A DNA stretch of 64,000 nt from a virus, in IMG/VR virus record IMGVR_UViG_3300017991_000075, positions 1-64,000 of that record. One strand, written 5' to 3'. Positions 15,556-31,613 of this stretch are shown here, in pieces. Position numbers and translations under genes: made by a program. The notes beneath the pieces are model-generated. The model was not told where the DNA came from. It saw only the letters and a program-made list of their open reading frames with translations, and searched no databases. The first letter of the stretch is position 1. Every line of letters starts with the position of its first letter.

Positions 15556-16509
15556 TTACTCTCCCCCATCTTCAATGTCACCGAAGTATTCGTCTAATTC
15601 CTCTTCCCAACGCTCCTCTATCAGCTCCTCGATCTCTGTCCAATTGTCGGTCATGAGTTCAATCTGACGACGCATCTTTCCCTCTTCACGCTTTAGTTTG
15701 TCGAACTTCACATCATCTCTAAAGTCGGCGACCGTATCTGCGATCAACCCGTTGATAACTTTCGGCTCAAGAGCATCAAGCTCCCAACTCTCATCACCGA
15801 ACTGAGCGACGTAATCCTTAGCACGAGGGTCCGTCATCTTCGCCGGGTTCGGTGGCGGCCCATATTCCACAACCTGTTCCATGTTCAACGCCAAACGCAC
15901 GACATGCAAATGACCGACAAACATCGCCATGCGATCGAGAATGTCTCTCGTCATATCGATCCCGCTAGAGTCATGATCACCGAGGTGCAGGATGACGGGC
16001 TGCTGACCACGCCCTATCAACTCTCTCATGCGACGAGCTGAACGCCACATTGCGCTTTGACTGTTGTACCCCTTACACGCAAAGTAAGGCACTCGTAAAT
16101 CCTCGCAAGTATTTTCGATGACCCCTTTGAGGGCCTCCTTTTCAATCCAAACTTCAGGTCGATAATCCTGACCCGACCAGAGATCGAGTTTGAACTGCTC
16201 AGCACACGCCGACAGTATGTTGGGCACACCGTTCCACGTCACGGGTTCTTCCACTTCGCGAGTACGATCGACAATCGTATCCCAATCAACGTACCCGGCC
16301 AGTCTGGCGTCATTGATGATGTTACCCAATCTGTTATAACTGGCTGTTGTGTTCGGCAACAGGTCACGACTGACAAACTGATAGTAGAGCTGCCTGAGCG
16401 TCAGGTCGAAACCTTGGGCAGCGTATTCGGCGATTATTCCGTTTGCCTGTTCAATGATCCTTAGAGTTTCAGGACGAAACTTCTTAGTGATATATTCAAT
16501 ACACGGCAT
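15556..16509 (-). CDS. TopoVI-A/Spo11-like protein (Topo mini-A candidate)
   Basis: A 317-residue protein combining two features of type IIB topoisomerase A subunits. Residues ~37-44 read TLRQLYYQ, matching the winged-helix catalytic-tyrosine motif in which the second tyrosine of R-x-x-YY (here Y43) cuts DNA. A Toprim domain follows: the acidic residue in VWIEKEAL (E123/E125) and the DxD in HLGDHDSSGID (D178, D180). It lacks the C-terminal part of a full TopoVI A subunit, and no GHKL-type B subunit is seen in the window. From the literature I recall that such short A-only proteins were reported from mobile elements as Topo mini-A. The C-terminal 90 residues are charged and helical. It may make double-strand breaks or act in DNA replication or segregation. 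Assignment to the superfamily is good; the biochemical activity is inferred. Confidence 0.7.
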   Translation of the reverse strand: MPCIEYITKKFRPETLRIIEQANGIIAEYAAQGFDLTLRQLYYQFVSRDLLPNTTASYNRLGNIINDARLAGYVDWDTIVDRTREVEEPVTWNGVPNILSACAEQFKLDLWSGQDYRPEVWIEKEALKGVIENTCEDLRVPYFACKGYNSQSAMWRSARRMRELIGRGQQPVILHLGDHDSSGIDMTRDILDRMAMFVGHLHVVRLALNMEQVVEYGPPPNPAKMTDPRAKDYVAQFGDESWELDALEPKVINGLIADTVADFRDDVKFDKLKREEGKMRRQIELMTDNWTEIEELIEERWEEELDEYFGDIEDGGE

Positions 16510-24717: not shown

Positions 24718-25043
24718 TAGGGTCCTCCTGTCTTTTCGCGTTCACGCAAGCGATACCAGTAAAGCTCATCGCTTGAACAAATCTCAACAGTAACAAGACC
24801 GGCGCTGTACATTACGAACGCATACTCATCCGGATTTACCCAAACCGTATGAGACGTATCCCAACGCCAGTCCTGTCGTTCTATAAAGCCCGCAGGCAAC
24901 TCTCTAAACATTTCCTCCCGTGTATGATAACGACGCGGCCCTGAAAGGTGCGTCGTGATTGTTCCAGTCGGAGTCTTGCGTGTGAGAACTCCGTTGCAGT
25001 GCTTCTCGATGAAGCTATCGAATTCCGGCGTCAATCGCGGCAT
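24717..25043 (-). CDS. Hypothetical protein, 108 aa
   Basis: The ATG at 25043 gives the better start; a TTG at 25052 is also in frame. The protein has a threonine/proline rich N-terminus, then FRELPAGFIERQDWRWDTSH, with no recognised motif. It overlaps the upstream gene by 29 bp. The ribosome site is poor in both cases, so the exact start is uncertain. Confidence 0.45.
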   Translation of the reverse strand: MPRLTPEFDSFIEKHCNGVLTRKTPTGTITTHLSGPRRYHTREEMFRELPAGFIERQDWRWDTSHTVWVNPDEYAFVMYSAGLVTVEICSSDELYWYRLREREKTGGP

Positions 25044-25302
25044 CCTTAGCAACCCATTCCCTCAACTGCCGGACTTCACGCTTGGCTTTATCGGCCTTGC
25101 GCTGCTCACGAAGCTCGATTGCAACCCGTGCAGCCTTTTCATAGGGAACGCCAGTAACACGTTCCGTAAGCAATCCGGTGCCCTTAGCGAGATCACGCAA
25201 ACGGCGATTACTCATGTTGTTACGCAGGAACAGCTTTGCGAGAACATCAATCTGGTCAATGTTTTCTACCAGTGCCCTCACGAGTGTGTGCATCTTAGCC
25301 AT
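25015..25302 (-). CDS. Helical hypothetical protein, 95 aa
   Basis: Helical protein, basic in its second half (KAARVAIELREQRKADKAKR). It has RLRDLAKGTGLLTERVTGVP, which reads as a helix-turn-helix or helical hairpin. The ATG lies behind AAAGG. It is the first gene after the structured non-coding region at 25355-25713, so that region lies in or near its 5' leader. Confidence 0.5.
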   Translation of the reverse strand: MAKMHTLVRALVENIDQIDVLAKLFLRNNMSNRRLRDLAKGTGLLTERVTGVPYEKAARVAIELREQRKADKAKREVRQLREWVAKDAAIDAGIR

Positions 25303-25354
25303 GATTCAAACCTTTCTTGTTAGAACAAAAACACTTGGTTTATTAGTCAGGACT

Positions 25355-25425
25355 GCCCCGACTTCCTTATCGTCCGCAGGTACGGGCGATAAGAGAGTCG
25401 GGGCACTGTGTCTACACAGTGCCCC
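25355..25425. promoter_or_regulatory. Two mutually exclusive hairpins upstream of 25302
   Basis: Hairpin A pairs GCCCCGACT (25355-25363) with AGTCGGGGC (25396-25404), extended by CTTATCG/CGATAAG after a 2x2 internal loop. Hairpin B pairs GGGGCACTGTG (25400-25410) with CACAGTGCCCC (25415-25425) around a four-base loop. They share 25400-25404, so only one can form fully. This looks like a switch in the leader of the gene starting at 25302. There is no T-run beside either, so they are not simple terminators. They could be part of the larger structured RNA next door. Confidence 0.5.
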
Positions 25426-25713
25426 TCTCACGGATTGCTTTCCGTTCAACACAGTTTTTGATTGTGGTTATATTACTTCCACGCTCTTAGCGTTCAGTTC
25501 CTCATCGTACTAGGTTCACCGTATAACCGCGTCTGAGTCTTCACATTCATTACCTTGGGCGTACTCTGGACCCTCCGTAATATAGCTCGCTGATTCCCCG
25601 TCTCCCATAAGGGGCAAGCTGGTCACACTATCCACGCTGCACTTCTAACAGCGCAACGCTTTTTAGGAATCCGTTTTCATGCCTCTAAGAGTCCGTCCTG
25701 AACGAATCAGCGA
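25426..25713 (-). ncRNA. Candidate large structured non-coding RNA
   Basis: No gene of significant length is found on either strand. Long-range complementarity is dense. A 10-bp helix pairs 25587-25596 (TCGCTGATTC) with 25704-25713. An 8-bp helix pairs 25469-25476 (TATATTAC) with 25577-25584. Local hairpins include CGCTG/CAGCG near 25645, ACGCT/AGCGT near 25485, ACGGA/TCCGT near 25435 and CCCC/GGGG near 25605. The helices are compatible with one another and are perfect at sequence level, so the strand cannot be fixed; flanking genes run leftward, so minus is assumed. It lacks a tRNA-like T arm, so tmRNA is not supported, and I do not recognise RNase P or group I/II intron motifs. A large phage RNA such as GOLLD or ROOL is possible but not shown. 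Confidence 0.4.
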
Positions 25714-25767
25714 TACCTCTATAGCGCATTTTCACAAATTTTGATTAGAACCGCGTACCTACACTGT

Positions 25768-25779
25768 ACGGTATACCGT
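25768..25779. promoter_or_regulatory. Perfect 12-bp palindrome ACGGTATACCGT
   Basis: ACGGTATACCGT is self-complementary and lies in the 880-bp non-coding stretch between the genes at 25302 and 26186. It may be a dimeric repressor site or part of an RNA hairpin. Confidence 0.35.
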
Positions 25780-26007
25780 TCCGATGTCTGTCACCAGCAA
25801 CACGGAACCATGATTATTAGAGAGTATTTCCCTAACACGATACGCATTATCTAAAGGAGTTTTGCGTAAACGGATGATGATGTCAAATAGCGTAGACATA
25901 CCGCGACTAGCGATTATGACGTCTCCTTATACGTACTACGTCACAAACGTTTTTACGTTATGTCCGCAACAATCCGCGCAACATTTCCGCAATCGTACTA
26001 TGTTGCG

Positions 26008-26035
26008 CACAACCCGAAATATGTGGCGGGTTGTG
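26008..26035. promoter_or_regulatory. Inverted repeat CACAACCCG / CGGGTTGTG
   Basis: A 9-bp inverted repeat (26008-26016 and 26027-26035) flanking 10 bases. The arm ACACAACCCG is the same sequence found inside each 33-bp repeat at 26955-27053, and CGGGTTGTGT occurs again near 26169. This shared word links the two non-coding stretches on either side of the KEAT gene. The rest of 25780-26092 shows no gene I can support. Confidence 0.5.
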
Positions 26036-26092
26036 TCCGTTACGGGTTGTTACTTGCTATAATTGCCAAAAAACGGAGTGTAAACGGTTTTA

Positions 26093-26136
26093 CCGTTACT
26101 TATGCCCCTTGAACGTTCAAGGGGCATAAGTAACGG
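26093..26136. terminator. Perfect 44-bp palindrome downstream of the KEAT gene
   Basis: A fully self-complementary 44-bp sequence (22-bp arms, CCGTTACTTATGCCCCTTGA...). On the leftward strand it follows the 26186-26674 gene and is followed by a T-rich stretch ending in TTTTTT (26068-26073). It should form a very stable hairpin and probably terminates leftward transcription, although such an exact palindrome could also be a protein-binding or processing site. Confidence 0.6.
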
Positions 26137-26156
26137 CACTACAAATTGTAGTGCCG
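26134..26156. terminator. Second hairpin downstream of the KEAT gene
   Basis: CGGCACTACAA and TTGTAGTGCCG pair over 11 bp around a single central base. It overlaps the 44-bp palindrome by three bases, so the two hairpins lie back to back 30 bp past the stop of the KEAT gene. A tandem or bidirectional terminator is the likeliest reading. Confidence 0.55.
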
Positions 26157-26185
26157 TTTCAAGGTTTCCGGGTTGTGTTCGTTGC

Positions 26186-26674
26186 TTATGCCTTATTGAA
26201 AGCATCCGCTATCGCGTCCGTTACTGCCGTTTTTACGGCATCCGCTATAGCGTCCGCGATCGGTAGCATTGCAGAAGCTTCTGCCGTTGCTTCCTTAGTT
26301 GCTTCCTTGGTTGCTTCCTTGGTTGCTTCCTTGGTTGCTTCCTTGGTTGCCTTGCGTTTCGGTGCAAACGTTTCAAGCTTCATTCTGCTATGCGTTACTG
26401 TCAATCCCGCGAAACGTTTTGTTAGTCCAGAAACACGGGTTTTCGCTTCCTTCATCGCTTCCCGTAACGCGGTTTTCGGCAGTCCCGTTAGTGGGAGAAA
26501 ACAAGCTTTCCGCGTTTCCGTATTGCGTTTTGCCTTCGTTGCTCTGAATCCCCAAGCTTGCAAAGTGTTCGTTACTGCTTGGCGTAGTTCGTTGCTTTCC
26601 GATTGAACAAAACACCACAAAAAAGCACGTTCAACAATCGTAGTAACCTTGATACGAGTAACCTTGTTAGCCAT
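26186..26674 (-). CDS. Basic protein with five KEAT repeats
   Basis: A 162-residue protein. Residues 1-105 are basic and helical (MANKVTRIKVTTIVERAFLW, KAKRNTETRKACFLPLTGLP). Five exact KEAT repeats lie at about residues 110-129. The alanine-rich C-terminus (ADAIADAVKTAVTDAIADAF) is amphipathic. The gene is isolated: non-coding sequence of 880 bp lies downstream and 520 bp upstream, and it has its own promoter, structured leader and terminator. Base composition is T/A richer around it than in the neighbouring genes. This looks like a separately regulated, strongly expressed gene. DNA or RNA binding is suggested by charge. Function unknown; the ribosome site is AGGAGTGTATTACA followed by ATG. 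Confidence 0.65.
   Translation of the reverse strand: MANKVTRIKVTTIVERAFLWCFVQSESNELRQAVTNTLQAWGFRATKAKRNTETRKACFLPLTGLPKTALREAMKEAKTRVSGLTKRFAGLTVTHSRMKLETFAPKRKATKEATKEATKEATKEATKEATAEASAMLPIADAIADAVKTAVTDAIADAFNKA
26286..26345 (-). repeat. 12-bp tandem repeat encoding KEAT
   Basis: Five units of GTTGCTTCCTTG (plus-strand sense) run in frame from 26286 to 26345, differing by a single base in the first unit. Such identity at DNA level suggests recent slippage expansion. Confidence 0.9.
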
Positions 26675-26701
26675 TGTAATACACTCCTATGTAAAAGATC
26701 G

Positions 26702-26760
26702 TTTCCGCATAGGTAGCAAGGCATACCGTATGCCTTGCGTTTTAACCTTGCTAGCGGAAA
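26702..26760 (-). promoter_or_regulatory. Structured leader of the KEAT gene
   Basis: GCAAGGCATAC/GTATGCCTTGC pair (26716-26738, one-base loop). The outer arms TTTCCGC (26702-26708) and GCGGAAA (26754-26760) pair, as do TAGCAAGG (26714-26721) and CCTTGCTA (26746-26753). TAGCAAGG can pair in two ways (with 26733-26738 or 26746-26753), giving alternative folds between promoter and ribosome site. Confidence 0.55.
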
Positions 26761-26779
26761 TGTAAAAGAACCTGTACGG

Positions 26780-26807
26780 AATATAGCTTTATTTGTTGCT
26801 ATGTAAA
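26780..26807 (-). promoter_or_regulatory. Sigma70-like promoter for the KEAT gene
   Basis: On the minus strand TTTACA (-35) and TATATT (-10) are separated by 16 bp, in an AT-rich setting, with a predicted start near 26773 and about 100 nt of leader before the ATG at 26674. No competing gene is present upstream for 380 bp. Confidence 0.5.
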
Positions 26808-26864
26808 AACAAAACTTGATAGATACGCCAAAAAAAACTTTTTAGATAACACAAAAAACACTTG

Positions 26865-26886
26865 AAACCCCCATATATAGGGGTTT
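26865..26886. terminator. Hairpin with T-run, possible bidirectional terminator
   Basis: AAACCCC and GGGGTTT pair around an 8-base loop; TTTTT follows on the plus strand and TGTTTTTTG follows on the minus strand after a short gap. It lies between the primase gene and the KEAT promoter and could end leftward transcription of the primase operon. Confidence 0.5.
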
Positions 26887-26954
26887 TTAGGCATTTTCTT
26901 GGCAGATTATTTTGTATAAAATATCGTATTTTGTGGTAATTTTCTGGCCAAAAA

Positions 26955-27053
26955 ACGGCAAGAAAACCGCCACGAACACAACCCGAAACGGCAAGAAAAC
27001 CGCCACGAACACAACCCGAAACGGCAAGAAAACCGCCACGAACACAACCCGAA
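26955..27053. repeat. Three exact 33-bp tandem repeats
   Basis: Units start at 26955, 26988 and 27021, each 33 bp (ACGGCAAGAAAACCGCCACG...), followed by a partial fourth at 27054. All three are identical. They lie in the 520-bp non-coding gap between the primase and KEAT genes. The internal word ACACAACCCG recurs at 26008 and its complement near 26031 and 26169. They might be iterons of an origin or operator sites. The repeats are continuous with no spacers, so not CRISPR. The rest of 26675-27193 holds the promoter, leader and hairpin listed separately. Confidence 0.7.
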
Positions 27054-27193
27054 ACGGCGCACTACCGAACATCTGTATGCACAAACACTGGCCAGAAAAA
27101 CAGCAGGGGCGGACCAAAATCAGGCCGCCTAAAATCTGCCAGAAAAGTCAGGAAACCCACGCCACAGAAAAGCCCCAAGAAACCGGCTCGTAT

Positions 27194-31438: not shown

Positions 31439-31570
31439 GGTGCCAAAAATGACACCCTTACAAATGCTCTCATCGCAATTTGAGGTGCCAAAAATGGCAC
31501 CTGCCCTTGTGCCAAAAATGGCACCTGTTAGTGTCAAAAATGGCACCTCAAAAGTGTCAAAAATGGCACC
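31439..31570. repeat. Five iteron-like palindromic repeats
   Basis: GGTGCCAAAAATGGCACC-type palindromes (7-bp arms around AAAA) at 31439-31456, 31484-31501, 31508-31525, 31530-31547 and 31553-31570. The last four start 22-24 bp apart, near two helical turns, so bound proteins would face the same side. The third copy and the last two copies have a slightly altered left arm. They begin at the very end of the winged-helix gene and run through non-coding sequence towards the next gene, in the manner of iterons or multiple operators. Confidence 0.7.
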
Positions 31571-31613
31571 TCCTAAAACAAGGACTTATAAACAGGGATT
31601 TCAAACAGGGAGT

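Follow-up and report, generated by a model that had tools for sequence, protein, structure and literature searches.

A gene-free stretch in a tailed-phage genome probably encodes a large structured RNA

The question raised by this locus is what a tailed phage encodes in an 883-nt stretch that holds no recognizable gene. The source is a 99,054-bp IMG/VR virus record, and the window is the whole stretch of DNA that was analysed, namely the first 64 kb of that record. Terminase, portal, and major head proteins are encoded, which identifies the source as a tailed phage, and it also encodes its own DNA polymerase, primase, DnaB helicase, SbcCD-like nuclease, and UvsX-like recombinase. The original prediction had placed a large structured non-coding region, possibly a new phage RNA, at 25355-25713. 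We find no coding signal, exceptional inverted repeats, and a homologous locus in a related contig, all of which bear out the central claim, but the right-hand end of the element reaches at least 25936 and probably 26158. We conclude that 25303-26185 probably encodes a functional structured RNA on the minus strand, and the support for this reading is the non-coding nature of the stretch, its conserved position, a conserved motif, and compensatory helices.

The stretch is flanked by minus-strand ORFs on both sides (Table 1). Its best ORFs score -20 to +3 in a self-trained coding model, compared to +19 to +54 for the flanking genes. It had been described as the largest gene-free gap, and this holds for the 64-kb window, where it is the longest stretch without a plausible ORF, but not for the whole record, in which a 955-nt gap lies outside the window; the other longer gaps of the coding model contain ORFs that it left unpicked, or the contig end. 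The structure model of p25302 is of low confidence (pLDDT 60). The p26186 protein is predicted to form a beta-beta-alpha-beta-alpha-beta domain (pLDDT of ~80 for much of the N-terminal portion), which resembles the eIF1/SUI1 and Prp protease folds only weakly in Foldseek, and its KEAT-repeat tail is encoded by a 12-bp tandem repeat. A type III toxin-antitoxin system was considered and rejected: 33-bp repeats are found upstream of p26186, but the protein has no Pfam or PHROG match, and a promoter-like site lies between the repeats and the gene.

Table 1. Features of the locus and its neighbours in the source phage (positions in the window; p values are for recurrence in the related contig G014)
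Feature	Position	Strand	Remarks
Stretch with the proposed RNA	25303-26185 (883 nt)	minus	no coding signal; syntenic gap in G014
p26186	26186-26674	minus	162 aa; upstream gene; lysine/alanine-rich tail
p25302	25015-25302	minus	95 aa; downstream gene
Best promoter-like site	26780-26807	minus	TTTACA-16-TATATT; upstream of p26186; consensus match only
Compound hairpin c1	26083-26158	minus	hairpin 26158-26132, 44-bp palindrome 26136-26093, third hairpin 26097-26083
Third compound hairpin	25973-26038	minus	TCCGCGCAACAT / ATGTTGCGC-ACAACCCG / CGGGTTGTG
Helix Pd	25936-25929/25847-25840	minus	recurs at L117:3769-3762/3680-3673 (p = 0.033)
Helix Pc	25875-25868/25676-25669	minus	8 bp; crosses Pb (pseudoknot)
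Helix Pb	25713-25704/25596-25587	minus	10-bp helix of the original prediction; recurs at L117:3598-3589/3505-3496 (p = 0.03)
Hairpin D	25634-25659	minus	recurs (p = 0.023)
Hairpin E	25584-25620	minus	AGCU/AGCU, CCCC/GGGG; CCUG/CAGG in G014
Helix Pa	25584-25577/25476-25469	minus	8-bp helix of the original prediction; alternative to outer stem of H
Hairpin H	25549-25581	minus	contains invariant motif AGGGTNCRGAGTACGCCCRAGG at 25574-25553; model R1
Compound hairpin c2	25354-25425	minus	hairpins 25425-25400 and 25405-25354 with common TGCCCC; switch of the original prediction

Most proteins of this phage led to no useful relatives in the collections searched. A nucleotide search with the region returned no relative among 50,697 phage records, the capsid gave a single weak match among phage records, and protein searches with DnaB, SbcC, terminase, polymerase, and topoisomerase led only to distant or single-gene relatives. 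The topoisomerase-like gene (15556-16509) has counterparts of 50-58% identity on 13 viral contigs with little else in common with this phage, which suggests that it may move between phages. A search with the major capsid protein led to three contigs, one with 85% identity (G014) and two with 76% (G015 and G016, identical to each other over the 16 kb compared), and a search with the capsid alignment added no further relatives. G014 retains the order of p28186-like gene, primase, p26186-like gene, gap, and p25302-like gene, and its gap of 786 nt (L117:3224-4009) lies between homologs of the same two genes, the products of which are only 31% (p26186) and 26% (p25302) identical. A conserved ORF had been named beforehand as evidence against an RNA; none was found in the G014 gap, and a small ORF beginning at the 3' side of hairpin H is, judged by eye, not conserved there. 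G015 and G016 keep the primase, with only a short gap and no motif; the proposed RNA is carried by two sequences only, those of the source phage and G014.

The two gaps have in common a 22-nt motif, AGGGTNCRGAGTACGCCCRAGG, which is invariant in both and is enclosed by hairpin H. On the minus strand, H reads ATTAC-GGA-GGGU-(9 nt)-GCCC-AAG-GUAAU in the source phage and ACCGU-GCA-GGGU-(9 nt)-GCCC-GAG-GCGGU in G014, such that three of the five outer pairs are changed on both sides (double compensatory changes), while a fourth changes from C-G to U-G and stays paired, as G-U, on the minus strand only. All 18 of 18 cells are paired (100%), versus 28-50% when the partner is slid. Random dealing of the partners, with just two sequences, matched this result in 67 of 500 shuffles, and the hairpin is therefore persuasive mainly jointly with its invariant loop. 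The loop sequence GAGU can pair with a downstream ACUC in both genomes, which is a suggestion only because these letters do not vary. A covariance model of the motif hairpin (R1), run against whole records, matches only the two loci, and against 93 other viral loci it gave one 20-bit match (E = 0.16). A pattern scan with the motif across 84,980 genomes of bacteria and archaea gave 13 matches, versus ~30 estimated by chance; these were mostly within ORFs, and none had the flanking helices. Two intergenic matches in Microcoleus were rejected at only 20-22 bits, compared to 58.

Beyond H, the two phages have further helices at corresponding positions whose sequences differ. Among 70 strong minus-strand stems, 11 (Pb, Pc, Pd, D, c1, and c2 among them) recur in G014 at p <= 0.05, against an expected 3.5, and on the plus strand 8 of 59 do so; these p values were obtained per stem from 300 shuffles and are uncorrected for the number of stems. 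Pc is extended to 15 bp in G014 (L117:3710-3696/3586-3572; p = 0.01 on the minus strand and 0/300 on the plus strand). Both long-range helices of the original prediction, of 8 and 10 bp, are present in the sequence. An exact 10-bp inverted repeat is unremarkable on its own at that distance, and Pb matters because it recurs in the relative; one of its arms is also the 3' loop strand of hairpin E. Recurrence of the 8-bp helix Pa is weak (p = 0.14 in a plus-strand test), and hairpin H is better supported than this competing helix. The proposed helices are thus not all mutually compatible, since Pa competes with H and Pc crosses Pb, and the core is predicted to be pseudoknotted and not a simple multibranched RNA. 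Covariation in homologs, which had been suggested as a check, is seen as the compensatory changes in H and as the helices at matching places, on the basis of two sequences.

Stronger inverted repeats lie to the right of the region first described and had been missed there. A perfect zero-loop palindrome of 44 bp (26093-26136) is the longest in the 99-kb genome, and it overlaps a perfect 27-nt hairpin (26132-26158); the hairpins of c1 have shared AACGG/CCGTT arms. Scanning for pairs of hairpins with at least 10 matched pairs each and one arm in common gave three strict cases in 99 kb, all three inside the stretch (25354-25425, 25973-26038, and 26087-26160), and none in five dinucleotide-shuffled genomes. 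In G014, c1 is represented by a zero-loop palindrome of wholly different sequence at the matching place (L117:3968-3991), and c2 (L117:3326-3262) keeps the GGGCA-TGCCC-GGGCA layout with a different upper stem. The notion that c1 and c2 arose as duplicates was dropped: they have only short common words (GGCACT and CTTAT.GCCC), and alignment gave no support. G016 has further arm-sharing pairs between genes (L118:7790-7831 and L118:8987-9064), in which the short hairpin again comes first when the minus strand is read; such pairs may be a general element of the phage group, including this distant relative.

Folding of the whole region is far more stable than that of shuffled sequences (z = -8.4 on the minus strand and -11.4 on the plus strand, from only 20 shuffles each). 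Sliding windows attribute most of this excess to c1 and c2, and since these carry most of the stability and both strands are stable, folding energy alone proves neither a large RNA nor its strand. The middle segment by itself (25426-25720) is weak, with z values of -1.4 (minus) and -2.7 (plus) against a control mean of -0.8 (sd 1.25). That it folds only slightly better than shuffles would fit ordinary intergenic DNA containing chance helices along with a few terminators or decayed genes, but the conserved synteny, the invariant motif, the recurring helices, and the absence of a U-tract directly after the c1 and c2 stems make this explanation very unlikely.

The RNA is very probably read from the minus strand, in the leftward direction, on evidence that is good but not decisive. 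The original prediction had read the region on the plus strand, whereas the wobble pairs in H and Pc, the structural alignment, and the neighbouring genes favour the minus strand. Wobbles in H, Pc, the c1 hairpins of G014, and the c2 stem of G014 read as G-U pairs on the minus strand but as A-C on the plus strand, while those in Pb of G014 and c2 of the source phage favour the plus strand. In a custom pairwise structural alignment of the core, no column shuffle out of 60 matched the minus-strand score, and the alifold energy was matched by 1 of 60 shuffles on the minus strand versus 36 of 60 on the plus strand. With a second setting the preference for the minus strand was weak, with alifold counts of 10 of 90 (minus) and 31 of 90 (plus), and the combined scores on both strands beat all shuffles. 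The minus strand also fits the direction of both neighbours and of the best promoter-like site. We detected neither a strong promoter nor a strong terminator directly at the ends of the RNA. Neither c1 nor c2 was called as an intrinsic terminator, there being no U-tract directly after the stem; the closest T run is ~20 nt past the c1 palindrome, unlike in a hairpin at 86022-86053 that looks like a canonical terminator.

Perfect palindromes are identical on both strands and could act as DNA, in a replication origin, a packaging site, or a protein-binding region. Seven of the nine genomic copies of ACAACCCG lie within 26009-27044, and AT-rich DNA with 33-bp tandem repeats adjoins the primase gene. 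Even so, we find such a DNA element quite unlikely, given that the motif-bearing hairpin H has compensatory changes and G-U pairs on one strand, that both phages have a better origin candidate, in which inverted-repeat iterons follow an initiator-like gene, and that no protelomerase or tyrosine recombinase is encoded. A protelomerase (tel) site was likewise discarded, as PF16684 and PF00589 are absent from the record, which is possibly incomplete.

Several repeats elsewhere in the genome were observed. A second non-coding stretch (26675-27193), which adjoins the primase gene, holds a perfect 33-bp tandem repeat in 3.2 copies, together with AT-rich DNA and a cluster of ACAACCCG, and the matching stretch of G014 (L117:4460-4929) likewise contains AT-rich DNA, besides repeats of the CTGCAAATTC type. 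An HTH_36 initiator-like gene is directly followed by about five copies of GGTGCCAAAAATGGCACC (31441-31572), G014 has a different inverted-repeat array (TGTTACGCCGTTTGTAACA) at the corresponding position (L117:9258-9325), and these iterons are a likely candidate for the replication origin. Two arrays of 108-bp tandem repeats lie near the contig start (308-1220).

A structured RNA at this position could also function in cis. It is possible that the region is a long 5' leader of p25302 and later genes that controls elongation, message stability, or translation, for example, through an arm swap in c2 (GGGGCA-TGCCCC-GGGGCA) or as an RNA antiterminator. The c2 hairpins precede the p25302 start by ~50 nt and no terminator intervenes, their shared-arm layout is preserved in G014, and in G016 an arm-sharing pair (L118:7790-7831) is found directly before an ORF start. 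However, typical leaders are much shorter and simpler than this RNA, and the c2 hairpins, which indeed share 25400-25405 but had been described as mutually exclusive, can largely coexist by abutting.

It is quite possible that the RNA has an excised form that acts in trans, which is the mode of action that we favour; the transcript, its processing, and its action are what we infer. An RNA of ~0.65-0.8 kb would be made leftward between p26186 and p25302, probably in one transcript with both. Its core would consist of the signature hairpin with the invariant loop, adjacent hairpins, and interlocking long-range helices with at least one pseudoknot, and would be bounded by the compound hairpins c1 and c2 (~20 bp). 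RNase III-like cleavage at the long c1 and c2 duplexes would then free a stable, pseudoknotted RNA of ~650 nt, which might act in trans as a folded RNA, like ROOL or GOLLD. A bolder version, in which this is a new class of large pseudoknotted phage RNA that is excised between shared-arm hairpins and has p26186 as its protein partner, appears rather unlikely at present, and the same low expectation attaches to the compound hairpins being a recurring processing or switching element of the phage group within that version.

If the RNA reading is true, it would add a further family, outside Rfam, to the large structured phage RNAs, of which only a handful are known, with unresolved functions, and it would do so in a phage group without a close relative in the phage records searched. 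More members can be sought directly with the signature motif and R1, and the arm-sharing hairpins at the two ends suggest processing or a switch, a hypothesis that can be tested.

Among known families, Rfam 15 covariance models gave no gathering-level match in the window, and a permissive search at both loci returned nothing beyond chance matches, of the microRNA type or other, far under the cut-off. Nothing credible was found at either locus for GOLLD, ROOL, HEARO, or OLE, and the absence of an RNase P or intron core, noted originally, agrees with the negative Rfam result for RNase P, tmRNA, and introns at both. The antiterminator RNAs encoded by the put sites of phage HK022 consist of a pair of neighbouring hairpins that lack a U-tract and occur in early phage transcripts. 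By description c1 and c2 are similar, but they differ in the arm common to their hairpins, in the much greater length of these hairpins, and in flanking a large RNA. The hairpins at which RNase III processes phage early transcripts are long near-perfect duplexes between genes of one transcript, similar to c1 and c2 at both ends of the core, whose processing is putative and whose arm-sharing layout is unusual. ROOL and GOLLD often sit near tRNA islands, whereas a tRNA search found none in the whole 99-kb record or in the G014 stretch; the locus thus differs from both families in having no tRNA genes in or near it and no Rfam match. Both are phage-encoded, multimeric (homo-oligomeric) RNAs of unknown function: ROOL, from phages and prophages, is 659 nt in a solved example and has multiple pseudoknots, and GOLLD is a very large structured phage RNA (PMC12286853). 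The candidate described here shows, in two sequences, what characterizes large structured phage RNAs, being hundreds of nucleotides long, non-coding, and conserved, with long-range helices or pseudoknots; it would resemble GOLLD in being a very large structured phage RNA and ROOL in being large, phage-encoded, and pseudoknotted, with a putative freed form of ~650 nt that would be of about the size of ROOL.
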